Origin: Spirochaetaceae bacterium | GTDB taxonomy: Bacteria; Spirochaetota; Spirochaetia; SZUA-6; Bin103 | Direction: 5' to 3' | Assembly (NCBI GenBank): GCA_028821475.1 | Contig: JAPPGB010000050.1 | Location: 32,912 to 86,985 of the forward strand | DNA length: 54,074 nucleotides | Shown here: positions 18,994 through 42,593 of the stretch, piece by piece | How the letters are laid out: each line of letters begins with the position of its first letter | Position numbering within the stretch: position 1 is the first letter of the stretch | Position numbers and translations under genes: made by a program | The notes under the pieces: generated by a model | What the model saw: only the letters and a program-made list of their open reading frames with translations | Database searches by the model: none | What the model was told of the DNA's origin: nothing

Positions 18994-19077
18994 GATGTGT
19001 GCCTCCTGAAAGTGTGGAATGGTCCATCGTCCGGCTCCTGCGGCGGCTCGTAAATCGCAACCTGGGCACCTCCGTCT

Positions 19078-19104: not shown

Positions 19105-19150
19105 CCCGCACGTCCGTCGCCGATTGCGCATGGATGAACAGGATTGAAGG

Positions 19151-21439: not shown

Positions 21440-21600
21440 GCGCGATACCAAAGACAGTGGTGCAATCGGCAATGTACCACGAATCCAGCACGGACACCGG
21501 AAACGCAGGCCGTGCCGCCGAAGCGGCCGCAGCCGCGTGACGCGGGCATTGGCGGGTGGTATCATCCACTTCCGATGAAACGAGACGAGCGAGGTTGGGC

Positions 21601-22701: not shown

Positions 22702-22703
22702 CC

Positions 22704-23624: not shown

Positions 23625-24006
23625 AGCCGCCAGCCGCGAGAACTCGCTCCGCACTGGTCGCGGTGTCGCGCGACCCGCCACGCGCAGCCGCTTCGCCGGC
23701 GAAGCGCCGGGCACATGCCGCGCGACCTCGCGATCACGCGCCTCCCCAGCGAGACGACGTTCAGCGAGCCGGCAGCCGCCGAGCGCGCCGCCTCAGCGAT
23801 ACCGTGACACGCCACGGGACGGACCACGGCGCAGGCATCCCTGCCCGGTCGGCAGCGAACTTGAAGGCGGACGTACGGGCAGCGCCCATGCGCCGGCGTC
23901 TTCGAACCAGCCGGCGCGGTGCTTCCTCGACCGGCGAGCCCGGGCTGAAGCGCTGCCCCGGCCACGTTCGGCGGGCGGCCCGGCGTGGTTGCAGAGCCGG
24001 CGGGCG
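23625..24006. other. Gene-free stretch between epimerase and ABC exporter genes
   Basis: About 380 bp of GC-rich sequence. The exporter frame is open through it, but the implied product is low-complexity Arg/Pro/Ser sequence without similarity to a transporter. I see no RNA gene, repeat or clear promoter. Confidence 0.5.
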
Positions 24007-25824
24007 GTGACTGGCGCGCCGCGGCCGAGCCGCGTGGCGGAAGTGTTTCGGGGGCACAAGCTGCTGATCGGGCTTTCGGCCGGCAGCGGACTGCTGTTTG
24101 CGGCCACCACGCTGATTCCGCCGCTGTACGTGCGCCGCCTCATCGCCGCCGTCACCGGCGCACCTGCCGGGACTGTAGCCGGAGCGGCCCCCGGCACCGC
24201 CGCCGGCGGTGCAGCGGATGGCGTTTCGTTGGCCATGGTGATCGCCGTGTTGGTAGGTGTATTCGTGTTGCGCGGCGCCGCCCGCTACCTGTACGGCATG
24301 ACTTCGCACCAGGCCGCGTACGCGTTGCTGGCCGACTTGCTGCAGCGCGTGTATCGCCACCTGCAGCAGCTCTCCCACCGCTTCTTCGCCGGCAGCCGCA
24401 CCGGCACCCTGATCGCGCGCTCGGTGAGCGACGTGGAGGCGCTGGAGGACTTCGTCGCGCACGGCGTCCCGGAGCTGGTGCAGGCGGTCGCCATCCCGCT
24501 GGCGATGATCGTGGTGCTGGTGGTGATCGATCCGCTGCTCACCCTGGTGGTGCTCAGCCCGCTGCCGGTCGCGGCGTTGGTGATCTTCCTGCTTACCCGC
24601 AACATCCGTGGGCAGTGGCGCGGCGTGCGCGCGCGCTATGCGCAGGTGGTGGCGTTGGTGGAGGACAGCCTGCAGGGGATGAGCGAGATCAAGTCGTTCA
24701 CCCGCGAGGCGGAACAGGCGCGGCGCGTCGCCCGGATGGCCGGCGACTACCGAGACGACATCATCCGCGCCACGCATCGCTCGCTGCTGCCGTCCGGGAT
24801 CGTGGAGATGACCGGCGGCCTGGGCGTGATCCTGGCGGTGGGAGCGGGGGGCGCCGCCGCTCTGGGCGGCGGGCTGCAGGTGGCCGACCTGTACCTGTTC
24901 CTGGCCTACCTGACCTTCATCTACCAGCCATTCCTGAAGCTGGCGGACATCGGCGAGGTACTGTTCCGCGCCCTGGCCAGCTACCGGCGCGTCGACGAAC
25001 TGCTGGCGGTACAGCCGGACATCGTCAGTCCGCCGGGAGCGGTGGTGCCTGTGAACTGCTCAGGCTCGGTGGCGTTGGACGAGGTCACCTTCTCCTACCG
25101 GCCGGGGGAGCCGGTGCTGCACCGGCTCAACCTCGCCGTGCAGCCGGGCGAGGTGGTGTCCCTGGCCGGACCCACGGGCGCCGGCAAGACCACCGTCACC
25201 CGGCTGGTGCCGCGCTTCTACGACCCCGACGCCGGCCGGGTTCTGGTCGGCGGCCATGACGTGCGCGCCCTGGATCTGACCTTCCTGCGCGGCCAGGTGG
25301 CGGTGGTCAGCCAGGAGGTGTTCCTGTTCCACGGCAGCGTGCGCGACAATATCCTGTTCGGTCGTCCCGGCGCCGGCGGCCGGGAGTTGCACGCTGCCGC
25401 CCGCGCCGCCAACGCGGAGGAGTTCATCCGCGGTCTGCCCGACGGCTACGACACCGTGGTGGGCGACCGCGGCGTGCGCCTGTCCGGCGGCCAGCGCCAG
25501 CGGGTGGCGATCGCCCGCGCGCTGCTCAAGGACGCCCCGATTCTGATCCTGGACGAGGCCACCTCGTCGGTCGACGCGGAGACCGAGGCGCTGATCCAGG
25601 AAGCGATGGGCCGCCTGCTTGCCGGGCGCACGGGCCTGGTGATCGCCCACCGCCGCTCCACCATCGAACGCGCCGACCGCGTGGTGGTCCTGGAAGCGGG
25701 CCGGGTCATCGAGTCCGGCACCGCCGCCGGCCTGCTCGCTGACGGCAGCCGCTACCGCAGCCTCGTGGCGGAGCAGTTGGAACAGTCACCGCGCCGCCCT
25801 GCGCCAACGCGCGTGGCCCGCTGA
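24007..25824 (+). CDS. ABC exporter, fused membrane and ATPase domains
   Basis: A 605-residue type IV ABC half-transporter of the MsbA/lipid or drug exporter kind. Six membrane helices lie within about residues 15-315. The ATPase follows, with Walker A GPTGAGKTT near 384-392, Q-loop VVSQEVFLF, signature LSGGQRQR near 490, Walker B ILILDEATSS, and the H-loop His in VIAHRRST. It works as a homodimer or with a partner; none is adjacent. Start choice is uncertain: GTG 24007 or GTG 24034, both without a strong ribosome site. A decayed copy of the same ATPase end lies at about 33325-33575. Confidence 0.9.
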   Translation: MTGAPRPSRVAEVFRGHKLLIGLSAGSGLLFAATTLIPPLYVRRLIAAVTGAPAGTVAGAAPGTAAGGAADGVSLAMVIAVLVGVFVLRGAARYLYGMTSHQAAYALLADLLQRVYRHLQQLSHRFFAGSRTGTLIARSVSDVEALEDFVAHGVPELVQAVAIPLAMIVVLVVIDPLLTLVVLSPLPVAALVIFLLTRNIRGQWRGVRARYAQVVALVEDSLQGMSEIKSFTREAEQARRVARMAGDYRDDIIRATHRSLLPSGIVEMTGGLGVILAVGAGGAAALGGGLQVADLYLFLAYLTFIYQPFLKLADIGEVLFRALASYRRVDELLAVQPDIVSPPGAVVPVNCSGSVALDEVTFSYRPGEPVLHRLNLAVQPGEVVSLAGPTGAGKTTVTRLVPRFYDPDAGRVLVGGHDVRALDLTFLRGQVAVVSQEVFLFHGSVRDNILFGRPGAGGRELHAAARAANAEEFIRGLPDGYDTVVGDRGVRLSGGQRQRVAIARALLKDAPILILDEATSSVDAETEALIQEAMGRLLAGRTGLVIAHRRSTIERADRVVVLEAGRVIESGTAAGLLADGSRYRSLVAEQLEQSPRRPAPTRVAR

Positions 25825-25944: not shown

Positions 25945-26325
25945 ATGAAGACGCTGAAGATCGGAATCGCCAGCTATGACCGGATGAAGGCCCGCACGAT
26001 GGCGATCGCTCGTGGCGAGTACAAACCCGCCACGGGAGAACCCTCGGTCTGGTTCAACTCCATCGAGAGTTTCGCGAAGGTGCTCTCGGAACACAATCGC
26101 GAGCTTCTGGCCATGATTGCCCAGGGGAAGCCAGACTCGCTCACCGAGCTGGCGGAGTTCACCGGACGGAGCACATCGAACCTGTCGCGGACGCTGAAGA
26201 CGATGGAGCGCTACGGGCTGGTGGAGCTGAGCGCGGGACGTCGCGGCAGGTTGATTCCGCGGGTCCCCTACGATCGGGTCACACTCGACGTTGCGTTGAC
26301 GATGCCGCCTCGGCGGGTTGCATGA
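25945..26325 (+). CDS. Small winged-helix DNA-binding protein (HVO_A0114-like)
   Basis: A 126-residue protein with a MarR-like winged helix at about 60-105 (SLTELAEFTGRSTSNLSRTL, then MERYGLVELSAGRRGRL). It is preceded by a short N-terminal part containing KARTMAIARGEYKP and WFNSIESFAKVLSE, as in the HVO_A0114 family of putative antitoxin-like regulators. The start ATG at 25945 has GAGGGAGAGGG upstream. An upstream ATG at 25856 opens a 30-codon frame that ends in an ATGA overlap with this start. Parts of another frame there (DTEVDAVLRERDRSHED) look like the end of a lost partner gene. No intact toxin is adjacent. Confidence 0.75.
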   Translation: MKTLKIGIASYDRMKARTMAIARGEYKPATGEPSVWFNSIESFAKVLSEHNRELLAMIAQGKPDSLTELAEFTGRSTSNLSRTLKTMERYGLVELSAGRRGRLIPRVPYDRVTLDVALTMPPRRVA

Positions 26326-26366: not shown

Positions 26367-28142
26367 TTACGCAATGGCTGTTACTTCTTCGCTGTGCGCC
26401 AGTCCCCAGCCGCGGAACACCAGCGCCACACCTTTGAACTCGGCGTCGGGGCAGCGCTGCGCCAGCCGCCCGTCCGCCAGGTAGCGGCGCAGTTGCGCCA
26501 CCGCCTGCGCGGCCTTCGTGCGCACCTGCGCCTCCGCCTGCGGGTCGCGCGACACGTACTTGAGTTCGATCACGAAGCCGTGGCGCATGCCCGGATAGCG
26601 CTCCGGGCGTGGCACCAGCACGATGTCGGCGTAGCCCATCGCCAGCTCCATCTCGGTGTGGAACACGAAGTAGCCGGACGCGCTCAGGTAGGCCGCCAGG
26701 AAGCCCTGCACCACCTTCTCGCCCTGCAGGTAGTCGCGGATGGCAGTGTGCTCCGCGATGGTGCCGCTCAGGCGCTCGAGGGCAGCTCGCCACTCGCCCG
26801 CCAGGGCCATCCGCCGGGTCAGCCGGTCGAACTCCACCAGGTCGAGCGAAAACACGCCCACGTCGCGGTAAGCGTCGCGCAGGTAGCCATACATCAGCCG
26901 CCGCACGGTCTGGTTGGGAACGCCGAGCCGCGGCACGCCGGCCGCCTCTCCACGGATGCTCAGCAGGCCGAAGTAGTGCATCAGCGAGAGAAAGTTCTCG
27001 CGCTGGTCGAGCCGCGCTAGCGGAAGGCTGTCCACGAGGTCACTGTCCGCCCGGCCATCGGCGATCACGTGGCGCAGCAGGTCGAAGTTGCCGTTCAACC
27101 GGCGCCCGGTGAGCAGCAGGTGGCGCAGCTTGCCGTAGTCGATGCGCACGTTGACGTCGATCAGGTTGTCGGGTCCGCTCTTGTTGGGCACCGAGTGCTT
27201 CAGGTAGTAGAGCACCAGGTCGGTGTTGTAGACGACGTTGTCGGCGGCCGTCGCGAACCGGTAGCCGTCGTACCACTCGCTCATGGTGTCCATCGCCGCA
27301 GTCACGTCCTGGTCGAACACGCCCAGATTCCGGTAGGTGTCCACCAGGCGCCGCACCTCGTCCTCGGTGAAACCGAGCATCTCGTTGAACGCGGGCTGCA
27401 GGCTCAGGTTGGAGCCGATGTTGAAGCCGCTGGTGACGTCGTCCATGGTGACCGGCGAGACCCCGGTGACGAACAGCCGCTCCACGCTGCCGTTCTCCGT
27501 ACCCGCCTTGAGCGTGGCGAAGAAGTTGCGATAGAAGCCGCCGCCGTGGGTAAACGCGTGGTAGGCGTCCGCCCCCTGGTGCGCCAGGATCGTGTTGGCG
27601 AAGTTGTCGTACTCGTCGATCAGGATGTAGAGCGGGACGCCGTGCCGGTCGGCGTGCAGGAACAGTGCGTTGAGCGTGTCGTTGATGGTCGGCTGCGAGC
27701 AGATGCGCTGCCGTGCCGGTTCGGGAAACAACTCCGGGTGTGCTTCCAGCGCATAGATGAGCTGGATGTGACAGTAGTTCTCGAAGTTCCGCTCCAGCGT
27801 CTCGGGGGCGTCGTTGAAGGCGGAGAAGTTGAACCGCAGCACGACGTACCGGCCTCGGTTGGGCGTGGGGTTGCGGCCGATGTCCGTACCGTCGAACAGC
27901 GCCTCGAAGTCGTCGGCCTGGTTACGGTCGTAGTAGCTCTCCATCATCGACAGCCAGCAGGTCTTGCCGAACCGCCGCGGACGGATGAAGAACACGAACC
28001 GCTCCTGCTCCAGCGCGTGCAGGAAGCGCGTCTTGTCGACGTACAGGCAGCCCTCCCGCCGGATGCCCTTGAAGTAGGCGAGTCCGTAGGGGATGGCGGG
28101 GACTCGGGGACGATCGCCGGAAGCGCCATCGGGCTCGGACAT
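26367..28142 (-). CDS. AAA-ATPase-like / PD-(D/E)XK nuclease domain protein
   Basis: A 591-residue protein. The N-terminal part is the AAA-ATPase-like domain that opens IPYGLAYFKGIRREGCLYVD and has the P-loop RPRRFGKT at about 54-61. The middle includes YILIDEYDNFANTIL (Walker B) and LFVTGVSPVTMDDVTSGFN. The C-terminus is a PD-(D/E)XK-like nuclease core, with Asp in GYADIVLVPRP and the ELK motif in HGFVIELKYVSRD. Such genes are widely duplicated in Bacteroidota, Spirochaetota and other bacteria; function is unknown, though nuclease fold and scatter suggest a conflict role. It appears intact. Two damaged relatives occur in the window (6982-8290 and 28243-29781). Confidence 0.88.
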   Translation of the reverse strand: MSEPDGASGDRPRVPAIPYGLAYFKGIRREGCLYVDKTRFLHALEQERFVFFIRPRRFGKTCWLSMMESYYDRNQADDFEALFDGTDIGRNPTPNRGRYVVLRFNFSAFNDAPETLERNFENYCHIQLIYALEAHPELFPEPARQRICSQPTINDTLNALFLHADRHGVPLYILIDEYDNFANTILAHQGADAYHAFTHGGGFYRNFFATLKAGTENGSVERLFVTGVSPVTMDDVTSGFNIGSNLSLQPAFNEMLGFTEDEVRRLVDTYRNLGVFDQDVTAAMDTMSEWYDGYRFATAADNVVYNTDLVLYYLKHSVPNKSGPDNLIDVNVRIDYGKLRHLLLTGRRLNGNFDLLRHVIADGRADSDLVDSLPLARLDQRENFLSLMHYFGLLSIRGEAAGVPRLGVPNQTVRRLMYGYLRDAYRDVGVFSLDLVEFDRLTRRMALAGEWRAALERLSGTIAEHTAIRDYLQGEKVVQGFLAAYLSASGYFVFHTEMELAMGYADIVLVPRPERYPGMRHGFVIELKYVSRDPQAEAQVRTKAAQAVAQLRRYLADGRLAQRCPDAEFKGVALVFRGWGLAHSEEVTAIA

Positions 28143-28242: not shown

Positions 28243-29781
28243 ATGCGCTATTTCAACACCACCGGACCGGTCGTTGCGGCGGACCACTACTGCATTCCGC
28301 CGCTTGGCCGGGTGAACCTCGAAGAGGTGCTGGCGCTGATCCGGGAGAAGCGCTACTTCGTGATGCACGCGCCGCGGCAGACCGGAAAGACCTCCGCGCT
28401 GCTGGCGCTGCGCAACCTGTTGAACGGCGGGTCCGTGGGCGCCTACCGCTGCGTGTACGTGAACGTCGAGTCCGCCCAGACGGCGCGCGAGCACGTGGAG
28501 CGGGGGATGCGCGCCATCCTTGGATCCCGGGGGACGAGGGCGCGCCGGACCCTCGGGGACGAGTCCCTGGCGAGCACCTGGCCCGGCATTTGACCACGTT
28601 CGGCCCGGAGGGGGCACTGCAGGAAGTGCTGGTGCGCTGGGCGGAGGCCGATCCCCGTCCCGCCGTGTTGCTGATCGACGAGATCGACACGCTGGTCGGC
28701 GACACCCTGATCGCCGTGCTGCGCCAACTGCGCGCCGGCTACGACGAGCGCCCGGGAGGGTTTCCGCAGAGCGTGATCCTGTGCGGCGTGCGTGACGTGC
28801 GCGACTACCGCATCCGCTCCTCCGCGGAGCACACGGTCATCACCGGCGGCAGCGCGTTCAACGTCAAGGCCGCTTCGCTGCGCATCGGGGACTTCTCGGA
28901 GACTGAAGTACGGCGTCTGCTCGCCGAGCACACCGCGGACACCGGCCAGCGTTTCGCGGCAGCGGCGCTGCAGGCAGCGTGGGAGCTGACCGCCGGGCAG
29001 CCGTGGCTGGTCAACGCGCTGGCCCCCGAGGCGGTCCACGCCGCCCGCGAGCGGATCATCCTGCGTCGCGAGACCCACCTGGACCAGCTCACCGACAAGC
29101 TGCAGGAGGAACGCGTGCGGCGGGGTGATCGGACCTTTGCTGAGCGGCGGCGCGGCGGCCCCGACTATCCGCCCCGATGATCTGCAATACGTTCGTGACC
29201 TGGGACTTGTGGCACGCGACAAGCCGGTGCGCATCGCCAACCCCATCTACCGGGAAGTGATCCCGCGCGACCTCACCTGGACTACGCAGGAGTACCTGCC
29301 GCATGACCCGGCGTGGTACCTGGACTCCGAGGGCGGCTTGAACCTGTCCAGGCTGCTGAGCGCGTTTCAGGAGTACTTCAGAGAGCACTCGGAGCACTGG
29401 GTCGAGCGGTTTCAGTATCGGGAGGCGGGTCCGCAATTGCTGCTGCAGGCGTTCCTGCAGCGCATCGTGAAGTCCGGCGTCCGCGTGGAGCGCGAGTACG
29501 GACTGGGGCGGATGCGGACCGACCTGCTGATCGTGTGGCCGGCCGGCGCGCCGCCGGACCGCACCCGCAGGATGGTGATCGAGTGCAAGGTACTGCACGG
29601 CAGCCTGGAGCGCACCATCCGCGACGGGCTGGAGCAGACGCGCGCCTACATGGACCGCTGCGGGGCCGCCGAGGGGCACCTGGTGGTCTTCGACCGTACC
29701 CCCGGCAAGGAATGGCGGGAGAAGCTGTTCCGGCGCCGGGAGGCGGGCGGCGGCGCGCCGGTCACGGTCTGGGGGATGTAG
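28243..29781 (+). pseudogene. AAA-ATPase/PD-(D/E)XK gene with two compensating frameshifts
   Basis: Three successive frames encode one recognisable protein. Part 1 (28243 to about 28590) begins MRYFNTTGP and has Walker A HAPRQTGKTSALLAL. Part 2 (about 28590-29122) has Walker B VLLIDEIDTLVG and LCGVRDVRDYRI. Part 3 (about 29125-29781) has the nuclease core RTDLLIVWP and VIECKVLHG and ends VFDRTPGKEW...VWGM. The first break is a missing base at GGCATTTGA and the second an extra G in a GGGG run. They restore the original frame. Near 29030 about 20 family-typical residues are also missing. Either a recent pseudogene or two homopolymer sequencing errors. Confidence 0.8.
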
Positions 29782-29836: not shown

Positions 29837-29874
29837 GCGGCGAGGGCGCCACGCACGGCACTTGCCCTCGCCGC
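29837..29874. terminator. Long hairpin between the AAA pseudogene and the binding-protein remnant
   Basis: Perfect 11-bp arms GCGGCGAGGGC and GCCCTCGCCGC flank a 16-base loop, 56 bp after the AAA gene stop and just beyond the stop of the minus-strand remnant. It could end transcripts from both sides. There is no T run. Confidence 0.5.
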
Positions 29875-29880
29875 AAGCCT

Positions 29881-29996
29881 TCCTACTTGTAGGCCTCGTA
29901 GGCGGCGTTCATGATCTCCAGGTACTCCGGCAGGCCGATCTTGTCGAGTTCGGCCAGGAAGTTGTTCCAGTCGGTGTCGTCGCCTATGTCGAGACG
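29881..29996 (-). pseudogene. 3'-end fragment of a sugar-binding-protein gene (left copy of direct repeat)
   Basis: This encodes the last 38 or so residues of a binding protein (RLDIGDDTDWNNFLAEL and onward to EAYK and a TAG stop at 29883). It differs from the end of the intact gene at 35385 at only 7 of 116 positions. The rest of the gene is absent; beyond 29996 the sequence switches to the restriction endonuclease gene. It marks the left border of the AT-richer island. Confidence 0.9.
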
Positions 29997-30017
29997 TTGT
30001 CACAGCCGATCGTGTCA

Positions 30018-31127
30018 TTACATTCCTGGACGCATGAGTTCCCACAACCGAGTCGGGGCTGCATCTGATCCTCGGTGAAGCGCGACAATGTGGTCCGGCT
30101 CTGACATGAACCAAGCGAAGGATCTCCACGCCAATTGCCCTATCGATCTCTTGACAACCGTTTGGTCGCGATCGGCGTACGCGCTAACGAACGCTACTTG
30201 TTCCTCGGCGAATCCAGCCTCCGTAGCAATTCTCATTAATGCTGTCTGTCTCGCCTCATCCACAGGTCCAGAGGTAGCGACAATCTCCACGAAGACCAGC
30301 AACGATTGAGGTGGGCCGAGATCAACGAGGATCAAGTCCGGAAGATTGCGATCCGTTTGGATCAATAGCCCGATGCTCTGAGCCAACTGGTCATCTCGCG
30401 CGACGACCTGGTTGCGGCTGTCGCTCAACCATACTACGCCTGGCGACGCCAGGAATCGAGGCGCGAATTGTTCGACTACCGATTTTGTAATAACCGAGCT
30501 TGGCCCCGGGTCCATCAATCGTGTCTCCCCATTCGGAAACGCAACTAGCACTTGGTACTTGGAGGCGACTGTGCCATGTTGCAGCAAAGTGACGCGCGTT
30601 AGTGCTCCCCTAGAAAGATTCTCTTCTTGCCAATTCGTGATTGCCTGTTCCAGGTGGTCTCCGACTATAGTGGGATCGAATAAAGACACGAAGTTCCGTG
30701 CGAGTGCGTAGCGTGGGCGCGGAGAAGTAGTCGGCAGATCGCGCCGCTCCTTGACTGCACCCGTACGCACCAATCCACTACGTAGAGTCTCATCACGGAT
30801 CGGTTCACGCGTGTTCGCTGCGTACCATCGGCCTCCGATGTTGGCGGTAGCCGTGCGCATCGACGCATCGCCCCATGTGACTCGCTCTCTACTGTTGGTC
30901 ATGGCTGCCTGGGCATCCGTCATCCGCGTAATCTGATCTGGCCGCAACCAGCGCCCACTGCCCTCTACCGCTCCCACGTACAGCATCACGAACACTGTCT
31001 TCGCCGCCATCTCGCGTGTCACGTAATTGCGGTTCTGGGTTCCTTCCGGGAACACGCTCTCAAGTCGTTCCAGGATCTCTGATACGGGCAAGAGTGGCGG
31101 GAGTTGCACCTTCAATACCCGTTCCAA
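30018..31127 (-). CDS. Type II restriction endonuclease, BsuBI/PstI family
   Basis: A 369-residue protein. The C-terminal half matches the BsuBI/PstI endonuclease family: LPDLILVDLGPPQSLLVFVE, the following IVATSGPVDEARQTALM, FVSAYADRDQTVVKR and LAWRSFAWFMSEPDHI. The N-terminal half (SEILERLESVFPEGTQNRNY, MAAKTVFVMLYVGAVEG) is also of this family's helical type. Known members cut CTGCAG. It follows the methyltransferase gene with a 16-bp overlap, the usual coupled layout of such systems. Length is close to known members, and no frame damage is seen. CTGCAG as target is inferred from family only. Confidence 0.85.
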   Translation of the reverse strand: MERVLKVQLPPLLPVSEILERLESVFPEGTQNRNYVTREMAAKTVFVMLYVGAVEGSGRWLRPDQITRMTDAQAAMTNSRERVTWGDASMRTATANIGGRWYAANTREPIRDETLRSGLVRTGAVKERRDLPTTSPRPRYALARNFVSLFDPTIVGDHLEQAITNWQEENLSRGALTRVTLLQHGTVASKYQVLVAFPNGETRLMDPGPSSVITKSVVEQFAPRFLASPGVVWLSDSRNQVVARDDQLAQSIGLLIQTDRNLPDLILVDLGPPQSLLVFVEIVATSGPVDEARQTALMRIATEAGFAEEQVAFVSAYADRDQTVVKRSIGQLAWRSFAWFMSEPDHIVALHRGSDAAPTRLWELMRPGM

Positions 31128-32947
31128 TATAGGTGCTCTACTGCGTACTCCACTGACTGTCGCCGCGCGCGTGCTCGCACTAACTGTTCGATTTCCTTCA
31201 TCGAATCGGGAGATGGGAGCGGCAACGACTCCAGCTCATAAGCGGATACGGCAACGCTGCCATTAATGCAGCGGAAAAGCTGGTCCACAGCCGCGCTGTT
31301 CAACAAAGCTGCCAAGGCCCCGGGGCTCACACTTGGAGGTGCAACAATCGGACGGATCATGTTGAGGTGGTTTTCGATCACAACCGCGCCGTGTTCACGG
31401 AGAAAAGACATCGGCAGCTCTGCGGCGACTAACCGGCGCCCCTGCTCCTTCGCGGTAGTCCTCTGCAACAGTACGCAGGGAAAGTCGGTCACGACCCAGT
31501 ATTCGTCTGTCTTCGGCTCAAAATACGGCTTGTGGTTCCGTCGCTGAGCTCGGAACTCGAACACACCCTGAGACCGAACGGACTCCGCCCAGATTAGCGG
31601 ATATCGCCCTTCTCCCGGGGTGTCGCGGAGGCTCTTCTTGTGACGATTCCAGACCAGAGGACCCGTGCTCACTCGGTAGCCATAGTCCACTAGTCGGTAG
31701 TGAAGTGCGTCTGCCCGAGCAACCAACTCAGCCTGTGTTTCAGTACGTGGGATGATCCACGGTCGATCAGCACGTTCCGGCAGACGAAATGATCCTGCCT
31801 CAGTAGTTTTGATCGAGCCGTCGGACTCGCAAGAAATGAAGTTGACTTCGCCGCAGCGGCCGCATTCGCCGCGCCGATATGCTGCAAGCATTGTCTCTTG
31901 GAGCACGTCAGCAAAGACACTACTGCGCTTCTCGATGAATGCGATGCTTACCGGTGGAGCCTCCTGACCGAGCAAGCCCCGCAGCGCTTTGAAATACTCC
32001 CCGGACAGGACGCTCGTCGGGGTCACGTATGCGACCACTCCTCCTAGTCGACAAAACCGGAGGGCCAAATCCGTAAACAGGCCATAGAGGTTTGCATGGC
32101 CGAACAGGCTGCGAAGGTATGTCGCGCGCATTTGTGGAGACAGCGTGGCGCGGCCGTATGGTGGATTTCCAACGACGAGATCGAACCCCTCGACATCGGG
32201 GGCCTGTTCGAGACTGTGGCATACTCGCACCACGTTTGGAAGTCGCCGCCCAGCGCTCTGGCAGAGGTCGTAGAGCGTGACCTCAAGAAACACCTGCGAC
32301 ATCCACGCGGCGAACGGGTCGATCTCGAATCCGTGCAACCGTCTCACGATCTCCTTCAGAGCATCCTCGGCGCTATAGTCCTGCAGATTCGCCACCATGC
32401 GCAGCGCCACCGGGGACAGAAAAGCGCCTCCGCCACAAGCCGGATCAAGCACGCGCGCAGATCGCCAGTCCACTCCAGCCTCCGTCGCCATGTCGAGCAA
32501 CTGCTCGCACAACGACGGAGGCGTGTAGTATGCGCCGAGCTTTGCCCGCAGACCCTCCGGCATCACTCCAGTGTACAGTAGCCCGATCGTATAGCTCGCG
32601 TCGCTCACATCCATCCTTGCGGCGCACGCCCCGATGTTCAGCGCCACTTCCTCTGCGGCCAGCGGCAAGGAGGCTACATAGACATCGGACGGGGCTTTGC
32701 ACAGAGACCAGTCGCGGGTGGCGCCGTGTATCTCACTCCAATACGCACCCACAGCCGCCGACACCATCCCGCGGGCGAAGCCTAACCGCTCCTGAGTTCC
32801 TACCGACCCCGCGTGACCGCGGGCACTCAGAAGCGCTTCCTGCACGGTCATCGGCACCGATCCGTTCGCAACCGCAAGATCACGATGGCCAGTCATTGGT
32901 GCCACCCGTCCCCACGGTAACGTCCAGGAACTCCCTCCATCGGTCAT
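31112..32947 (-). CDS. Type II DNA adenine methyltransferase, partner of the BsuBI/PstI-type enzyme
   Basis: A 611-residue N6-adenine methyltransferase. The SAM-binding motif is VLDPACGGGAFLSP near residue 170, and the catalytic NPPYG lies near residue 270. A VVAYVTPTSVLSGEYFKALR segment follows, then a C-terminal target-recognition region to the end. It would protect host DNA from the endonuclease encoded downstream. The start is uncertain: ATG 32947 gives the longest frame, but ATGs at 32896 and 32851 are possible, and none has a good ribosome site. A promoter with a perfect TATAAT lies about 95 bp upstream. Confidence 0.85.
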   Translation of the reverse strand: MTDGGSSWTLPWGRVAPMTGHRDLAVANGSVPMTVQEALLSARGHAGSVGTQERLGFARGMVSAAVGAYWSEIHGATRDWSLCKAPSDVYVASLPLAAEEVALNIGACAARMDVSDASYTIGLLYTGVMPEGLRAKLGAYYTPPSLCEQLLDMATEAGVDWRSARVLDPACGGGAFLSPVALRMVANLQDYSAEDALKEIVRRLHGFEIDPFAAWMSQVFLEVTLYDLCQSAGRRLPNVVRVCHSLEQAPDVEGFDLVVGNPPYGRATLSPQMRATYLRSLFGHANLYGLFTDLALRFCRLGGVVAYVTPTSVLSGEYFKALRGLLGQEAPPVSIAFIEKRSSVFADVLQETMLAAYRRGECGRCGEVNFISCESDGSIKTTEAGSFRLPERADRPWIIPRTETQAELVARADALHYRLVDYGYRVSTGPLVWNRHKKSLRDTPGEGRYPLIWAESVRSQGVFEFRAQRRNHKPYFEPKTDEYWVVTDFPCVLLQRTTAKEQGRRLVAAELPMSFLREHGAVVIENHLNMIRPIVAPPSVSPGALAALLNSAAVDQLFRCINGSVAVSAYELESLPLPSPDSMKEIEQLVRARARRQSVEYAVEHLYWNGY

Positions 32948-33041
32948 CCTTGGGCATCGGTCAGGTCATCCGGGCGACGTGCCGGGAGCAGAGCTTGACC
33001 ATGTCTCGGCACACACCGTTTCAAAGTACATTCGGACTCGT

Positions 33042-33071
33042 ATTATACGCGCAACCGACGGTCCTGGCGAA
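33042..33071 (-). promoter_or_regulatory. Probable promoter of the restriction-modification genes
   Basis: A perfect TATAAT (33042-33047, minus strand) has a weaker TTCGCC box 18 bp upstream (33066-33071). The start site would be near 33035, giving a leader of about 90 bases before the methyltransferase gene. I see no controller-protein gene. Confidence 0.5.
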
Positions 33072-33324
33072 CCGGGTGGCGGAGTGCTCGCGGGGCCACT
33101 CCACGCTGAATGACTCATGATCTGAGTGGGAGGCTGGCTATTTCGTGCGTGGTCTGAAATCAAGCAGGCATGAATTCGTTGCGCGACCCTACGGCGGCGG
33201 GATCTGATTCTCCCGGCTTCGGTCAGGGCGGTGACCGCGCGGCTGGCGCGGCCCGACGAGCGGCGCGGCTGGGGTGCACGCATGGCCGGGCATCACCCAC
33301 TGGGTTCCGGCGGATTCGCCAGGA

Positions 33325-33575
33325 GCGCTACTCAACGATGCGCTGGTCCGATCGTCGACGAGCCCACCTCGTCTGTGGACGGCGAGACCGAAGCCTGATC
33401 CAGGAGGCGATGAGCGGCTGATATCCGGACTTACTGCCATGGAATCGCCCACCGCTGTTCCACCATCGAACGCGCCGAATGCGTGCTGGTGCTGCAAGCG
33501 AGCCGGGTCATCCTGAGCGGCACCGCCGTCGACCTGTTGGCCAACGCCTGCCGCTACCGCCGCCTGATGAACGTC
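33325..33575 (+). pseudogene. Decayed ATPase end of an ABC exporter
   Basis: Pieces in broken frames encode IVDEPTSSVDGETEA, LIQEAMSG, then IAHRCSTIERAECVLVLQ and SGTAVDLLANACRYRRLM. They match in order the Walker B to C-terminal part of the exporter at 24007-25824 (ILDEATSSVDAETEA through GLLADGSRYRSLV). A one-base loss precedes Walker B, another follows the ETEA codons, and a stop and foreign bases split the middle. It is clearly not functional. The flanking stretches 32948-33324 and 33576-33782 hold no gene I can support. Confidence 0.8.
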
Positions 33576-33782
33576 TCGTCAGCGTCACTGTGCCCGCGTC
33601 ACACGCACGGATGATCGAAATGGGCGCGGCCACTGGGTTGTCAGTCCTCAGGAAATGACGTGGCCGCTCCACGCCGCGGCATGTACGCCTGCTCTAGTTG
33701 TAGTCGACTTTACCAGCCAATGGTGCACGCGCCACGGAAACGACACTCATCATGGACGACGATTGGCGACCGCCGTCACGCA

Positions 33783-35285
33783 TCACTGGCCCAACTCACT
33801 CCAGCTATTGTGTTCAATCGCGCGTTGCGTTACTGCTTTCGCTGCTTCGTCGAGTCCAGGGAAGAGAGTCTCACGCGAGATATTCAGCAGACGCAGTTCG
33901 TTCAGAATATGAAGTTTGACATCGTTCGGAACCTCCAGTGTGAAGTGATCGTAAACCGGTATATCAGAATTACAATCCAGAACTTGGCAACGTTCAAACC
34001 GTTCGTGAAATGCCGAAATCAGGAACGCGCCGGACTGCGCTCGGACCCGTTCGAATGATTGTTGCGGCTCAACAACAAACACGCGGAAGAAATCTCGAGG
34101 ATCGATTCGCTCCTCGAAATCGGGCTTCTCCTGACGGATTAGACGGTACAGACGGCCCATGGCATGCTTGTAGATGTATTGGTACCGAGGCCTAAGCTCT
34201 CGCGCCTTGATATCCTCTCCCGTCCAACCAACGAGTATGTTCTGATCAGCACGTGAGAGCTTGGCAAAATTGGTTATGATGGAAATGGTGTCGCTATTAA
34301 ATGCCTTAACCAGTTCTCGAGGGACTGAGAAGACATGCAACCGACCGGTCACGCCGTCAGACACGCAGGTGGAAAATAGAGCCACAAGAGGATTTTTCGT
34401 GACGTCCAGCAGTCGAGTCTTGAGGCCGTGGTGTTGCCCGAGAACCCATTGAGCAAGAGCTGACTTCGCGTCGCTGAAGTCATCTGGTCTCCGCGAAATG
34501 AGGTCAACGAGCATCTCTCCCTCCTTGTCGCGAAGACTCAATCTGGGTTCTGTCGCACAGCGCATCACGGATGGCCGCAGTTTCCATCTGTTGGTGCACT
34601 CGCCTCGAAAAAAGAGTAGACTATCGGTGTGGAGTTCTTCGACTTCCGCACACTGTTCGATAAGATCCGCAACCTGACAGATTTGCTTATTCGCGCCTGC
34701 GGAAGCATCTGACTTGGATACTTCCGGCTTACCTGGGAACAGCTTTGCCTGCCAAGGTCGCGACCACGATAGGTCTGTGCCAATAAGGTCAGATGCAGTG
34801 AAATCCGCGCCCTTCAGCGTCGCGCAACTGAGCGAGGCACCGCGAAAAAAAGAGAGGTTCATTTCCGTATCGGTGAGATCAGCTTGGAATAGATTAGCCC
34901 CACGGAAAGAAGTGCTTCCAGTCTCTATACCGCGGAAGCTCGTACCACTTAGATCGGCGTTGTTCAAACTTGTGCCCAGGAGACTCGCGCCGTCAAGTTT
35001 CGAGTTTTGGAGCTGAGCGTTTTGCAGGTTAGCTGACCATAGGTTGGCTTGCCTCAGGTCGGCGCCGTGGCGCGAATTCCAGAGACGAGAGTCACGGAGA
35101 TTGGCCCTGCTAAGATTGATTCGTGAAAGAGGGATGGAGCCGTCCTCACTGAGTTTCCCCGCACTTCGAAACTCCTCGTAGAGGTCCGCACCTTCAAAGT
35201 CAGGGTTGAAGGCGTGCCGCTCACGCCTTCGATTCCAGCTCTCCACGCCTTCGAGTAACCAACGGAGGTGATCGGGGTTAGCCAT
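33783..35285 (-). CDS. Pentapeptide-repeat / FRG-domain fusion protein
   Basis: A 500-residue protein. Residues about 52-175 form pentapeptide repeats (many A-D/N-L-x-x units such as ANLRD, ADLRQ, ANLWS, ADLSG, ANLFQ), which predict a right-handed quadrilateral helix able to mimic DNA. Residues about 222-440 form an FRG domain: the name-giving motif LFFRGE at 224-229 with WKLRPSVMR, and the QHHGLKTRLLDVTKNPL box at 284-300. The domain has no settled activity, but FRG proteins recur in phage-defence neighbourhoods. It stands alone on the minus strand of the AT-richer island, beside a restriction-modification system. No damage is visible. Confidence 0.85.
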   Translation of the reverse strand: MANPDHLRWLLEGVESWNRRRERHAFNPDFEGADLYEEFRSAGKLSEDGSIPLSRINLSRANLRDSRLWNSRHGADLRQANLWSANLQNAQLQNSKLDGASLLGTSLNNADLSGTSFRGIETGSTSFRGANLFQADLTDTEMNLSFFRGASLSCATLKGADFTASDLIGTDLSWSRPWQAKLFPGKPEVSKSDASAGANKQICQVADLIEQCAEVEELHTDSLLFFRGECTNRWKLRPSVMRCATEPRLSLRDKEGEMLVDLISRRPDDFSDAKSALAQWVLGQHHGLKTRLLDVTKNPLVALFSTCVSDGVTGRLHVFSVPRELVKAFNSDTISIITNFAKLSRADQNILVGWTGEDIKARELRPRYQYIYKHAMGRLYRLIRQEKPDFEERIDPRDFFRVFVVEPQQSFERVRAQSGAFLISAFHERFERCQVLDCNSDIPVYDHFTLEVPNDVKLHILNELRLLNISRETLFPGLDEAAKAVTQRAIEHNSWSELGQ

Positions 35286-35345
35286 GAGTCATCTTACAAT
35301 CCACAGACAACGGGGCCAGCCCGATGCGTGATGCTTAGGGTGACC

Positions 35346-35373
35346 GGCGGGGACGTGGTTGTTCGCCCCCGCC
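35346..35373 (-). terminator. Hairpin downstream of ABC importer operon 2
   Basis: Arms GGCGGGG and CCCCGCC pair around a 14-base loop, 12 bp after the binding-protein stop. There is no T run, so it is a weak terminator candidate. Confidence 0.35.
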
Positions 35374-35382
35374 GCGAAGCCC

Positions 35383-35498
35383 TCCTACTTGTATGCCTCG
35401 TAGGCGGCGTTCATGATTTCCAGGTACTCCGGCAGGCCGATCTTGTCGAGTTCGGCCAGGAAGTTGTTCCAGTCGTTGTCGTCGTTGATATCGAGACG
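35383..35498. repeat. Right copy of the 116-bp direct repeat (intact gene end)
   Basis: It matches 29881-29996 in the same orientation with 7 differences. Four of these cluster near the edge farthest from the gene stop. This copy is part of the intact binding-protein gene. Confidence 0.9.
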
Positions 35499-37049
35499 GC
35501 CGGTCACGAACTTGGCGGCCGACTCGTAGACGAACTCGTTCACCACCGAGCGGATGTCGGAGACGGTCTTGGCGTCCTCGACGCCGAGCGCCATGCGCGG
35601 CACCCACACCTCGGGGATGTGGTCGTAGTACACGTGCGAGGAGTCGATCAGGAAGCCCTCGTAGTTGAACTCCTCGGGATCGCCGCTGGAGCCGCCGAAC
35701 AGGTCGGCGGGCATGAAGAACGGTGACGAGTGGATCCACGCCTGGGTCTGCTGCGGCTCCAGGAACACCGCGTCGGCGCCCAGGTTGGTGTGCACCGCCG
35801 GCTTGCCGTTGATGCCGATCTCGCCCGGCTCCGCCCAGCGCCAGTCGACGCCGAACACGCCCCACCAGTTGCGCACCGACGCCTCGCGCGAGTACATGAA
35901 GTCGATCCACTTGTAGATCGCCTCCGGGTTGTCGGCGTCCTTGGTGATGGCGGCGCTGTCGTGCACCTTGGGTCCGGGCGGGAAGTAGCCGGCGCTCACG
36001 TGGCCGTCCGGTCCGCGCAGCGGCGGCACCACCCGGAAGTCGCCGGAGCCGCCCTCGTAGCCGCCCCGCCAGGCGCCCAGCATGCCGCGGTGGCCGACCG
36101 TGCCGGCGCCGATCCGCGGCGGGTCGCCTTCCACCAGCGGCGCCAGCGCCGACCGGTCGCGCACGAACATCTCCTCGTCGATCAGGCCCTCGGCGAACAG
36201 GCTGTGCACGTAGCGCATGCCCTCGCGCCACTCGGGCTGCGTGAAGGCGGCCACGATCTGGCCGTCCTGGACGTTGAGCATGTCGCTGTCGTCGGTGTAC
36301 AGGAACGCGTTCAGCAGGAACGGCCACGGGCGCGTGTGCCAACTGTTGGCGAATCCGGACAGCGGCAGCTCGTCGGCGACCCCGTTGCCGTTGGGATCCT
36401 GGGTCTTGAACGCGCGCAGCACCTCGCGCAGCTCCTCGGTGGTAGTCGGAATCTCCAGGCCGAGCTTGTCCAGCCACACCTGGTTGATCCACATCTTCTG
36501 CGCCACGCCGCAGTGGTAGCACTCCTCGTAGGCGGTGAGCACGTACACGTTGCCGTCCGGCCCGGCGCTCTCCTTGAGGAAGTTGGGCGCCGCGGCGACC
36601 ACGTCCTTGATGTAGAATCCGTGCTCTTCGATGATGTCATTCAGCGGGATGAACAGCCCCTGCGAGCCGTACAGGTGCTTCTCGTCGTGGGTGATGTTCA
36701 TGCCCATCATCATGTCGGGCAACTCGGCGCCACTGTTCATGACCAGGGTGAACTTCGCCTTGGCGTCCTCGGAGCTGTTGACCGCGTCCCACTCCCAGTG
36801 GATGTTGGTCTGCTCCTCCATCCACTTGGTCATCTCGTTGGCCTCGAAGTCGACGATGGTGCGCGTGTAGGACACGAACGCCGTCATGGTGACCTTCTCC
36901 TCGAAGATCGGCACCACCCCGGGCGGCGACAGCTCGCCCATGGCGACGGCTGCTTCCTCCTCGCCACTGGCAAACGCGGCCGTGGCTCCGGCCGCCGCCA
37001 GCATCAGCGCCAGCAGCAGCACGAGCGAATTACGAACGGTACAGGTCAT
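35385..37049 (-). CDS. Extracellular sugar-binding protein of ABC importer 2
   Basis: A 554-residue periplasmic binding protein of the LplA/YtcQ group. The signal peptide at 1-28 (ending GATAAFASGEEE) has no lipobox Cys. FASGEEE-type leader ends are common in spirochaetes. The mature part has VTMTAFVSYTRTIVDF near its start and ELPDMMMGMNITHDEKH. The ATG at 37049 has GGAGGAGG at good spacing. It is the last gene of an operon in which both permeases come first, the reverse of importer 1. The final 38 codons are repeated at 29883. Confidence 0.92.
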   Translation of the reverse strand: MTCTVRNSLVLLLALMLAAAGATAAFASGEEEAAVAMGELSPPGVVPIFEEKVTMTAFVSYTRTIVDFEANEMTKWMEEQTNIHWEWDAVNSSEDAKAKFTLVMNSGAELPDMMMGMNITHDEKHLYGSQGLFIPLNDIIEEHGFYIKDVVAAAPNFLKESAGPDGNVYVLTAYEECYHCGVAQKMWINQVWLDKLGLEIPTTTEELREVLRAFKTQDPNGNGVADELPLSGFANSWHTRPWPFLLNAFLYTDDSDMLNVQDGQIVAAFTQPEWREGMRYVHSLFAEGLIDEEMFVRDRSALAPLVEGDPPRIGAGTVGHRGMLGAWRGGYEGGSGDFRVVPPLRGPDGHVSAGYFPPGPKVHDSAAITKDADNPEAIYKWIDFMYSREASVRNWWGVFGVDWRWAEPGEIGINGKPAVHTNLGADAVFLEPQQTQAWIHSSPFFMPADLFGGSSGDPEEFNYEGFLIDSSHVYYDHIPEVWVPRMALGVEDAKTVSDIRSVVNEFVYESAAKFVTGRLDINDDNDWNNFLAELDKIGLPEYLEIMNAAYEAYK

Positions 37050-37087
37050 TTTCGACCTCCTCCTTGAAATGTGCGGGATGGAGAGGC

Positions 37088-38047
37088 TCATCCCTTGATC
37101 GATCCTATCAACACGCCTCTCACAAAGTACTTCTGCACGAACGGGTACAGCATCAGCACCGGCACGCTGGCCACCACGATCACCGCGAACTTGATCAGCT
37201 CCCGGAGTTGCGCCTGGGTGGCGTCCGAACCGGCGGATATGGCGAACAGGGTGGCATCCATCGAGTTTACCACCAGGATGTTGCGCAGCACGATCTGTAG
37301 CGGCACCAGCTTCTGATCGTTCAGGTAGATGAACGCCTCGAAGAAGGAGTTCCACTTGTATACGGCATAGAATAGCGTGTTCACCGCGACTATCGCCCCG
37401 GAGATCGGCAGCACCACGTGCCAGAAGAACTGGATGTCGCTGCTGCCGTCGATCTGTGCCGCCTCCAGCAGCTCCTCCGGGACGTTCACCTGGAAGAAGG
37501 TGCGGGTGATGATCACGTTCCAGGCCGCCACCGCGGTGGGGATCAGCATCGCCCAGCGGGTGTTGATCATGCCGGCGTCGCGCACCACCAGGTAGGTGGG
37601 GATGATGCCGCCGTCGAAGATCATCGTGAACACGAACAGGAACATGTAGATGTTGCGGCCGCGGAAGCGGCGCCGTGACACCGGGTAGGCGGCGAGCAGG
37701 GTCAGCGTCACGCTGATGGCGGTGCCGAACACGGTGTAGAAAATGGTGTTGGCGTAGCCGCGCCAGATGGTGGGGTAGTTGTAGACCCGCTCGTATGCGA
37801 TCAGCGAGGGTTCCACCGGCCATAGCCACACCCGGCCCGAGGTGACCGCCGCCGGATTGCTGAACGACGAACTGACGATGTACACCAGCGGGTACAGCAC
37901 CCCCAGCGCGATCACGGTGAGGGCGATCACGTTGCACACGTCGTAGACCTGGTCGGCGCGCGAGCCGCGGATGCGGCGGCGGGTGGTTGGCTGCGCCGGC
38001 GGTGCGGCGCTGGCGCCGGCCGGCCCTGCTGAGACGAGACTGCTCAC
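37088..38047 (-). CDS. Carbohydrate ABC importer permease (YtcP/LplC type)
   Basis: A 319-residue permease with a cytoplasmic N-terminal tail of about 35 residues, six helices, and the EAA loop at about 210-228 (NVPEELLEAAQIDGSSD). The tail end is VLIGSIKG. Start GTG 38047 overlaps the stop of the LplB-type gene by 4 bp (GTGA), so translation is coupled. The binding protein follows 38 bp later. Confidence 0.9.
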   Translation of the reverse strand: MSSLVSAGPAGASAAPPAQPTTRRRIRGSRADQVYDVCNVIALTVIALGVLYPLVYIVSSSFSNPAAVTSGRVWLWPVEPSLIAYERVYNYPTIWRGYANTIFYTVFGTAISVTLTLLAAYPVSRRRFRGRNIYMFLFVFTMIFDGGIIPTYLVVRDAGMINTRWAMLIPTAVAAWNVIITRTFFQVNVPEELLEAAQIDGSSDIQFFWHVVLPISGAIVAVNTLFYAVYKWNSFFEAFIYLNDQKLVPLQIVLRNILVVNSMDATLFAISAGSDATQAQLRELIKFAVIVVASVPVLMLYPFVQKYFVRGVLIGSIKG

Positions 38048-38997
38048 CAGAGACTGGCGCCGCCGAGCCGCTTGGCAATCCAGTTGCCGACCATGATCAG
38101 CGCGAAGTTGATCGCCGAGTTGAACAGGCCGATCGCCGACGCGTAGGAGAAGCGCGGAATGCCGGTCAGCCCAATCTTGTAGACGTAGGTCTGGATCACC
38201 TCGGAGCGTTCGAGATTGAGGTCGTTCTGCATGTTGTAGACCTTCTCGAAGCCGATGTTCATGAGCTGGCCGAGGGTGAGGATGAACAGGATGACGGCGG
38301 TGGGCATGATGCCGGGGATGTCGATGAAGCGGGTGCGCTGCACCTTGGTGGCGCCGTCGATGATCGCCGCCTCGTGCAGCTCGGGGTCGATGCCGGCCAG
38401 CGCGGCCAGGTAGATGATGGTGCCGAAGCCCGAGAACTGCCACACGTGCGACCACACGTAGATCGACTGGAACGCCTCCGGGCGGCCCATGTAGGAGACC
38501 GGCTTCATGCCCAGGGCCAGCATCAGGGGGCCGACCACGCCGACCGAGGTGGACAGGAACTGGATCAGCAGCCCCACCATCACCACCGTGGAGATGAAGT
38601 AGGGGGCGTAGATGACCATCTGCACCGTCTTGCGGAACAGGCGGCTGTTGGCGTTGTTGATCGACAGCGCCAGCAGGATCGGGATCGGGAACGTCGCCGC
38701 CAGCGTGTAGATGCTGAGGAAGAAGGTGTTGCCGACGATACGCCAGAACAGGTAGGACTCGAAGAAGCGCTGGAAGTGGTCCAGCCCCACCCACGGACTG
38801 CCCCAGATGCCCTTGGCGGCGGCGAAGTCCCGGAACGCGATCTGCGCGCCGTACATCGGCAGGTACTTGAAGATGATGAACCAGATCACCGGCAGCGCAA
38901 TGATCAGGTGCAACTGGTAGTCGCGCGCCAACTCGCGCCACAGACGGGAGCGGCGGGCGGATCGTGTGCCGCTGTCAGCCAGGGATTCGGATGCCAT
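38044..38997 (-). CDS. Carbohydrate ABC importer permease (LplB type)
   Basis: A 317-residue LplB-like permease. The first helix is at about 30-50 (LIIALPVIWFIIFKYLPMYG), the EAA loop is at about 213-232 (IDPELHEAAIIDGATKV), and the C-terminus GNWIAKRLGGASLW is typical. It is the first gene of importer operon 2. No ATPase and no dedicated regulator lie next to it. Confidence 0.9.
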   Translation of the reverse strand: MASESLADSGTRSARRSRLWRELARDYQLHLIIALPVIWFIIFKYLPMYGAQIAFRDFAAAKGIWGSPWVGLDHFQRFFESYLFWRIVGNTFFLSIYTLAATFPIPILLALSINNANSRLFRKTVQMVIYAPYFISTVVMVGLLIQFLSTSVGVVGPLMLALGMKPVSYMGRPEAFQSIYVWSHVWQFSGFGTIIYLAALAGIDPELHEAAIIDGATKVQRTRFIDIPGIMPTAVILFILTLGQLMNIGFEKVYNMQNDLNLERSEVIQTYVYKIGLTGIPRFSYASAIGLFNSAINFALIMVGNWIAKRLGGASLW

Positions 38998-39091
38998 CAG
39001 GAAGCGCGCCTACCATACCCACGTCCGCCGGTGGCGTCCAGCCGTCTTGCGCACACACAGCGCACATGGCTCGCACATAGCGCGTCGGGTG

Positions 39092-40168
39092 TCAGCTGCT
39101 GCGGCCTGATCTGCGGACGACTCGCTGAGGCGCAGCGCTTCTTCGTTTGGCGCGCTGCAGGATCGCGCTACGCTTGACGCGGTGCATGATCTCTCGCGTG
39201 AGTTCTTCGAAGTCGTGGAACGCGTCGCGCGAGGCTGCCGCATGGCTGCCGATGGCGCCGTCCGCCGGGGCCAGCGCGAAGATGGGTTTACGGGCTTCCT
39301 GGGCAAGGGGAACAAGGCTCCGGTAGTGCTTGACCGTCGCGATAGCGTTTCTATCGGTGTCGGCGTCACCTGTCTCTGACGTGCGCCGCTCGTCCAGGAC
39401 TCGTGCTGAGTATTCGGCAGGCATCTGTCTCGCCCACCGGTCGTAGGCCTTGACCGGACGGTTCAGGCGCACACCGTGTTGTTGGATGAGATAGCCGATT
39501 GGGGCCATGTGCCCCGCTGGCAGTCGGAAGGAAGGACACTCCCAGTTATGCCTCCGCTTCTTCCAATCGGACCGCCAATGCCGGAGGGCAGGCCCCAGGT
39601 TGCGCAGCCCCTGGCGCGAAAACAGGTCGGCGGCGAGCGGTACGATTACGAAGTCGGTGGCGATGAGGGCCGAACGGTTTATGGCTCCCAGGCTGGGGCC
39701 GACGTCAACCAGCACAATGCTCGCTTCAGACCGCCGGGCACCTGTCTGAATAACCTGCCAGAACGAGGTGATCACCCGAAACGGTCGATATAGATTCTGG
39801 CTTCCCAGGCAATTCGGCCACTCCGAAGAGAGAAGATCTTCGAATCCCGATAGCGCAAGGTCACCTGGAAGAAAGAACAGCTCATGTGCAATCCGAAGCA
39901 GCCTCGGTTCGCGGATGTCGCCGACCTCGGTGAGAGGCTGAACGCACTGATAGATAGTGTTTCCGCGATCGCCACCATCGGTGTCCCAGAGCTTCTCAAG
40001 ACGCGTTTCTCCGAGAAACGCAGCGGTCAGATTTGCTTGCGGGTCGAGGTCTACAACCAGAACAGCGTGCCCGAGTTCCTCGAGCATCCACGAAACATGG
40101 TAGACCAGCGATGTCTTACCCACTCCCCCCTTGTTGTTGAAGAAAGTGAGAACCGGTGTAGTGCTCAT
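39092..40168 (-). CDS. ParA/MinD-family ATPase
   Basis: A 358-residue ATPase of the ParA type. The deviant Walker A is NNKGGVGKTS at 11-20, with switch region VVDLDPQANLT near 40 and Walker B-like IVLVDVGPSLGAINR near 165. The last 25 residues are strongly basic (KRAKRRSAAPQRVVRRSGR-like), which may bind DNA. No ParB or centromere-like repeats are adjacent. The ATG at 40168 overlaps the stop of the AlbA/RecG-like gene by 4 bp, so the two form a functional pair by design. This suggests an accessory module rather than chromosome partition. Confidence 0.85.
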   Translation of the reverse strand: MSTTPVLTFFNNKGGVGKTSLVYHVSWMLEELGHAVLVVDLDPQANLTAAFLGETRLEKLWDTDGGDRGNTIYQCVQPLTEVGDIREPRLLRIAHELFFLPGDLALSGFEDLLSSEWPNCLGSQNLYRPFRVITSFWQVIQTGARRSEASIVLVDVGPSLGAINRSALIATDFVIVPLAADLFSRQGLRNLGPALRHWRSDWKKRRHNWECPSFRLPAGHMAPIGYLIQQHGVRLNRPVKAYDRWARQMPAEYSARVLDERRTSETGDADTDRNAIATVKHYRSLVPLAQEARKPIFALAPADGAIGSHAAASRDAFHDFEELTREIMHRVKRSAILQRAKRRSAAPQRVVRRSGRSS

Positions 40169-41123
40169 GGTCTGGCCCACACCGTGCAACTGACCCAGTT
40201 CGACTCGACTGCGAAACTCGGCTCTCGTTGGCCATTCTCCTGCAGGTGTCGTCTGGCACTTGGTATGCCCGCGCCATAGCGCTGCACCAATCCCAGAACG
40301 CGCATCGCCTCTGCCAGGATCGGGTTGCGGTAGTCGACCAGTCCGGGCCGTCCGAAGTTGGCCACGGAAACCGCACCGTACGGTCCGCCAGGACTGGTGA
40401 TCTCGACACGGTCGTCGAACCAATAGACGTGCACGGGGCTGTTCGTACCCTCGTAGGTCCGATGCATGATGGCGTTGCGCGCAAGCTGCTGCAACGCCGG
40501 CAGCGGATAGGTCGGCGTGCGTATCTCCCGCTCGGCAAAGGTAAAGTCGACGGCGGTCCGGTTGTGAGCTACCAGCTTGTCATCGAGCCGGGTGACGAGG
40601 TTCACGAGCGGGCCGTCACAGAGGGCTTCGTCGGTCACCGGGTTGCTCAGGTCCCTCCCGGCGACGCGAAGGAACTGCACGTAGGCGCCCGGGAGGAACT
40701 CGCGAGGGTTCTTCCCCAGGACCAGAATGCCGGCGATTGTCGGTGTGGGGCTGTCGTCGGAGCCGATCATCTTCATGGCAGCGAGCCTCTGCTCGATGGT
40801 ACGCTCATTTTCGGCAAGAGTCGCGGCGTCGACGGCGAGTGGCAGATACTCCTCGTCGAAGCGCCGCAGATCGAGATCGTCAATGCTCGCTGTCGGAATC
40901 GGGATGGCGTCGAAGTGCGGATCACGATAGCGGCGCTTCTCGTTCAGAATCCGTTCATCCTGCAAAGTAGCGACGTCTCTCCGCGGCCCGGTCCGAACGC
41001 GCACACTGCTTGCCGGATTTTCGTCGGTGCGTCTCCTTGCATCGACTCCTTGCGCTCGACAAGGTCCGACTCAAGGGCCGTGAGCATCGCTTCGAGCTGG
41101 AGGTCCGAGTATGGTGCCGTCAT
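40165..41123 (-). pseudogene. AlbA/RecG-like ATP-binding protein gene with internal deletion
   Basis: The 5' part (41123 to about 40995) encodes the start of an AlbA_2-type domain, with LESDLVERKESMQGDAPTKI then RQAVCAF. The sequence then jumps, in another frame, to VRTGPRRDVATLQDERILNE and continues intact to 40165 (RFDEEYLPL, a GHKL-like part with LARNAIMHRTYEG, and ITSPGGPYG). In family members several tens of residues separate these blocks. So a deletion removed the middle of the AlbA domain and shifted frame. The C-terminal 279 residues could still be made from GTG 41004. It overlaps the ParA gene by ATGA. Confidence 0.7.
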
Positions 41124-41178
41124 CCGGTCAGTTGAAGACCTCCAATTGGTGTGGCATGAAGCGAAGCGCTCGCCTGGG

Positions 41179-42519: not shown

Positions 42520-42593
42520 CGAGTCCTACTCACGCGACCCAGTGTAGCCCGAACGCCCGCATCGGCTCCAGGGGGCCATCCGGTCACCCCCGG

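Follow-up and report, generated by a model that had tools for sequence, protein, structure and literature searches.

We describe a composite locus in a spirochaete chromosome, made of layers rather than of one element, in which a Type II restriction–modification (R-M) pair lies between duplicated pieces of a host gene junction. The window, that is, the whole stretch of 54,074 nucleotides analysed, is part of one contig of a 5.73-Mb assembly in 183 contigs, from a bacterium of the spirochaete family that is near kin of a known sponge symbiont. On balance, we favour the view that the junction of a gene for a solute-binding protein (SBP) with an ABC exporter gene (ABC) is an insertion hotspot, and that it was duplicated by one recombination event, be it a single crossover with a circular molecule or an insertion with a long target duplication. 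From right to left, the gene order is SBP, FRG, ABC′, insertion sequence (IS) end, methyltransferase (MTase), restriction endonuclease (RE), SBP′, AAA/PD-(D/E)XK genes and ABC, where the primes mark truncated copies. The features are as follows.

23898–25824, + strand: ABC exporter, left border gene (from sequence comparison with the closest relative, L004)
25945–26325, + strand: small HTH regulator, HVO_A0114/MarR-like (PF25212, E=6e-22)
26367–28142, − strand: AAA-ATPase_like + PDDEXK_9 protein of a multicopy family (PF09820, E=4e-48; PF08011, E=4e-13)
28243–29781, + strand: frameshifted AAA ATPase + PD-(D/E)XK-like gene of a multicopy family (ORFs in different frames)
29864–29998, − strand: SBP′, duplicate of the SBP 3′ end with terminator (repeat search, BLAST, fold of −35.3 kcal/mol)
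30018–31127, − strand: RE of BsuBI/PstI type (PF06616, E=3e-42; PF17728, E=4e-31; PADLOC REase_II, E=3e-131)
31112–32947, − strand: Type II N6-adenine DNA MTase (PADLOC MTase_II PDLC03338, E=1e-234; Eco57I/N6_Mtase)
33092–33147, no strand assigned: putative diverged IS end (83–91% identity to the termini of contigs C47, C140 and C1)
33265–33565, + strand: ABC′, decayed duplicate of the ABC exporter 3′ end (BLAST, relaxed alignment)
33783–35285, − strand: FRG, pentapeptide-repeat + FRG-domain protein (PF00805, PF08867; PADLOC candidate PDC-S15, E=2.6e-66)
35341–35498, − strand: right repeat copy, last ~114 bp of SBP with terminator hairpin (repeat search, BLAST, fold of −31.5 kcal/mol)
35385–37049, − strand: SBP, intact ABC-transporter solute-binding protein (SBP_bac_1; Pfam PF01547, E=1.6e-15), right border gene

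An empty site in the closest relative

Three genomes were compared with the source assembly (G000). The closest to it is 'Spirochaetaceae bacterium bin103' (G002; its locus lies on contig C25, which is probably the same contig as L004), which comes from the sponge Aplysina aerophoba (PMC5649159), and it is the only relative that carries the SBP/ABC locus; the other two, G001 and G003, have neither SBP nor a syntenic ABC, and are therefore unable to polarise the events. No intermediate state of the locus was found among the genomes compared. L004 is collinear with the window over 15769–25776 and 35341–42580 (80–90% identity), and its SBP orthologue is 93% identical at the amino acid level, with a synonymous divergence from the window of 0.26 for SBP and 0.35 for ABC.

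In L004, SBP and the ABC exporter are convergent and each present in a single copy, with stop codons at 9250 and 9301 and nothing but ~50 bp separating the two genes. Measured against this site, the insert in the window runs from 25777 to ~35340, i.e. ~9.6 kb. The R-M genes are missing from the orthologous L004 site, where the target is single copy. L004 thus presents an empty site with a single SBP end, which supports the view that foreign defence genes were inserted at this position in the window. The match of the ABC exporter to L004 stops at 25776, so that the last ~15 codons of this gene were replaced during insertion. The first-pass annotation had taken 29881–35498 for an inserted island and had suggested looking in relatives for an empty site with one copy of the repeat; the empty site is indeed found and the insertion holds, but the extent of 5.6 kb does not, as the insert reaches left to 25777.

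Composition and content of the insert

Foreign composition is confined to three genes, namely FRG, RE and MTase. Their GC content at third codon positions is 0.56, 0.61 and 0.66, respectively, compared to 0.88–0.95 in SBP, permease, ABC and ADH. The GC content is 55–58% at 30.0–31.9 kb and 52–55% at 33.7–35.2 kb, with 62–65% between, and the profile climbs back over ABC′. Hence, the AT-richer island of the earlier annotation retains its compositional break, but it consists of two patches rather than a single block.

The same annotation had recognized a PstI/BsuBI-type R-M pair and a pentapeptide-FRG protein, and both identifications are borne out by PADLOC and Pfam. RE overlaps the end of MTase, and both are full length with respect to their PADLOC models: the MTase match covers residues 32–607 of 611 aa, and in RE the BsuBI/PstI catalytic and N-terminal domains (PF06616, PF17728) span most of the protein. 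The cargo genes presumably function in defence. Relatives of these restriction genes occur widely: the nearest plasmid-borne MTases are ~51% identical, and among the 393 genomes of the phylum that were searched, 18 others carry distant REs. CTGCAG is undepleted in the window (38 sites versus 34.7 expected), a count that has no bearing on the activity of the R-M pair.

Related genes were also encountered elsewhere. One further RE of BsuBI/PstI type, only distantly related, lies close to an MTase-like gene in the source genome (C32:120982–124893; L080). In G003, an MTase of this R-M type persists as a truncated pseudogene (L039 7900–8700; C2:940937–941686); a PEP carboxylase gene follows directly downstream, with an open frame that starts within the pseudogene. 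Separately, CAGCTG is strongly depleted in the window, with 1 site (39093) versus ~20–23 expected, as well as in 47 kb of other source contigs (4 versus 18) and in L039 of G003 (0 versus 9), a pattern suggestive of PvuII-type restriction having acted in the family over a long time.

The two AAA/PD-(D/E)XK genes have a host-like composition, and in the gene at 28243–29781 an ECK motif can be read directly from the sequence. Both belong to families with a copy number resembling that of a proliferating family: that of 26367–28142 has ~15 further copies in the source genome, while that of 28243–29781 has ~8 near-full-length and many partial copies there and many in G002 and G003.

Remnants of both border genes

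The 116-bp direct repeat of a binding-protein gene end, from which the first-pass annotation had started, is real and somewhat longer. The repeat search aligned 122 bp without gaps at 93% (29875–29996 versus 35377–35498), and BLAST, which included the terminator, 134 bp at 92.5% (29864–29996 versus 35365–35498; E=1e-49 in the window). The terminator-like hairpin reported at the left copy is present as well, and the right copy keeps its own: when 60–68-nt segments 3′ of the stop codon were folded, they gave −35.3 and −31.5 kcal/mol, respectively. One stem position in SBP′ carries a paired change of G-C to A-T. SBP′ begins 20 bp beyond the RE stop, from where its hairpin would terminate the MTase–RE transcript.

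The reading frame of SBP′ is open, and, relative to SBP, it has two amino acid changes near the broken end (N to G and N to T), the other differences being synonymous; the two copies have an exact stretch of >50 bp in common. In a three-way comparison, 5 of 114 positions are changed in SBP′ alone (two edge changes excluded), 2 in SBP alone and 8 in L004 alone. In the whole 5.73-Mb assembly, there are only two good copies of the repeat, plus a weak paralogue match. Recombination between two paralogous binding-protein genes had been offered as one origin of the repeat; the involvement of SBP ends comes nearer to the truth, but paralogues as partners are rejected by this copy number, and the two copies appear to derive from a single locus, as alleles or duplicates.

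The other border gene has left a remnant of its own inside the insert. Positions 33325–33565 of ABC′ match the end of ABC in L004 (9361–9600) at 80% and window positions 25519–25763 at 78%, and its left extent to 33265 rests on relaxed alignment. ABC′ is decayed, with in-frame stop(s) and several single-base indels, and has no stem shared with the resident ABC. Apart from indels, 52 of 273 positions are changed in ABC′ alone, compared to 13 in the resident ABC and 11 in L004. Set against the synonymous divergence between window and L004, this amount of drift implies that ABC′ has been drifting for about as long as the species have been separate, or came from another lineage; its age could thus equal that of the species split, or it could stem from a third lineage.

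Between ABC′ and MTase sits the putative IS end. Contigs C1, C47 and C140 of the source genome break at a shared ~54-bp IS-like tip starting CAGGGCCGTCTCACGCTGAAAGACTCATGATC, and it is this recurrence at contig breaks that makes the tip readable as an IS end. The rest of the element could not be located in the bin, and no transposase was seen.

Mode of insertion

The two halves of the junction repeat in the same order and orientation, SBP and ABC′ being followed by SBP′ and ABC, and the truncated inner ends of SBP′ and ABC′ face the R-M pair. SBP′ abuts the end of RE, and the matching SBP copy on the MTase side is set apart by FRG; on this same side lies ABC′, whose partner ABC is found beyond the AAA genes. 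The arrangement that we favour would have arisen as follows. At a hotspot formed by the convergent SBP and ABC genes, the Type II R-M cassette (~30.0–33.2 kb) may have entered through recombination that duplicated the junction itself. The donor may have been a circular molecule that carried the cassette together with several hundred bp of a relative's junction and was integrated by a single crossover; an 'insertion with long target duplication' would be formally equivalent. By either route, the 3′ end of ABC would remain, truncated, upstream of MTase, and that of SBP, likewise truncated but with its terminator, downstream of RE. FRG would then occupy one copy of the junction and the AAA/PD-(D/E)XK genes the other, having been inserted later or having been present already in the donor and recipient alleles. 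Transcripts of the R-M operon would now run into the captured terminator of SBP; unlike ABC′, which has decayed, this terminator has remained intact.

The unequal divergence of the two remnants is what complicates this picture. On its own branch ABC′ has changed by 19% and SBP′ by 4% (52/273 versus 5/114; Fisher P=1e-4), although gene conversion could mask a single event. SBP′ is either younger, or kept by selection as the terminator of the RE transcript, or homogenised through gene conversion with the intact SBP, 5.4 kb distant. One event therefore requires gene conversion or selection at SBP′; otherwise, a second event is needed. In its simplest form, as a single clean long-target-duplication event followed by neutral decay, the scenario was rejected, since it predicts similar values for the two remnants and the branch lengths speak against it.

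In a possible, if less probable, history, at least two unrelated events took place, the older one, perhaps IS-linked, leaving ABC′ and a more recent one putting the SBP end behind the R-M operon. It would account for the very different divergence of ABC′ and SBP′ and fits the IS remnant between ABC′ and MTase, but the matching order and orientation of the fragments, as well as their placement on either side of the R-M pair, would then have to be a coincidence. That order is also expected if SBP–ABC had been duplicated in tandem in this lineage, with the middle later replaced by the R-M pair and the IS and different cargo acquired at each junction; with synonymous changes making up about half of the total in SBP′, and with its open frame, the fragment looks like a gene that was functional for a while. 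Nevertheless, the middle retains no trace of an SBP 5′ or ABC 5′ part, and more steps are needed, which makes this scenario unlikely.

We give little credence to a metagenome assembly chimera, in which two strains would have been joined at the repeat. The assembly is in 183 contigs, and SBP and SBP′ have the exact stretch of >50 bp in common, but in both copies distinct sequence adjoins this stretch on both sides, a second assembly is collinear in the flanks, and joining two strains at SBP leaves ABC′ unexplained.

Least probable of all, with hardly any weight in our view, is an integrative defence element of an uncharacterised kind that would insert at the SBP 3′ end and supply a replacement end, in the manner of elements at tRNA genes: the repeat consists of exactly the gene 3′ end plus terminator and SBP is intact, but the insert has no recombinase, the supposed element encloses an ABC-exporter fossil, its cargo forms two separate blocks by composition, and no similar unit exists elsewhere in the source genome, three other methyltransferase-bearing loci of which (C32, C118, C56) have no flanking direct repeat on the scale of the R-M unit. 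The first-pass annotation was correct that no integrase is visible, as neither integrase nor recombinase was found among the ORFs of the insert or in Pfam and PADLOC scans of its main ORFs. Its proposal, in which such an element would insert at the 3′ end of a gene and restore that end, is not supported, as the region is composite, and an att-type element is rejected because of the internal ABC fossil and the absent integrase. A tRNA or other RNA gene as the target was likewise dismissed, since the borders have no tRNA nearby (a tRNA-Gln lies at 47192) and no Rfam match was found at 25–38 kb. No further copy of the unit or its borders was found at other sites in G000–G003.

Relation to known systems

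The RE with both Pfam domains and the adjacent full-length N6-adenine MTase are shared with PstI/BsuBI Type II R-M systems. That the MTase–RE pair is itself a minimal mobile unit, which captures the end of its downstream host gene and takes it along as its own terminator, so that R-M insertion with target duplication would be favoured by selection for the terminator it provides and would not be a by-product, seems highly improbable to us.

The locus also has known counterparts. Hotspots that lack an integrase and receive their cargo through homologous recombination in the flanking core genes are common (2017, PMC5635113), and our locus shares with them variable foreign cargo between conserved neighbours and the lack of mobile-element enzymes; it departs from them in that a clean double-crossover exchange would leave no internal copies of the border genes. 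In this respect, Helicobacter pylori offers the closer parallel. Three papers describe R-M insertion with long target duplication (Nobusato et al. 2000) and R-M units bounded by direct repeats in this species (PMC1643837, PMC3031569, PMC4978471). Here, too, one genome has R-M genes that its relative lacks, the target occurs as long direct repeats, and there is no integrase. Unlike in H. pylori, the target is split by other cargo, its halves have diverged unequally, and the putative IS end lies on one side.

The locus is thus a case of ordinary hotspot biology that happens to be unusually well preserved. As a record of the entry of defence genes into a chromosome without a mobile-element enzyme, it offers a sister species in which the site is still empty, fossils left by each border gene, and cargo whose layers can be told apart, and, while it reveals no new system, it adds a spirochaete example to the pattern known from Helicobacter R-M loci.
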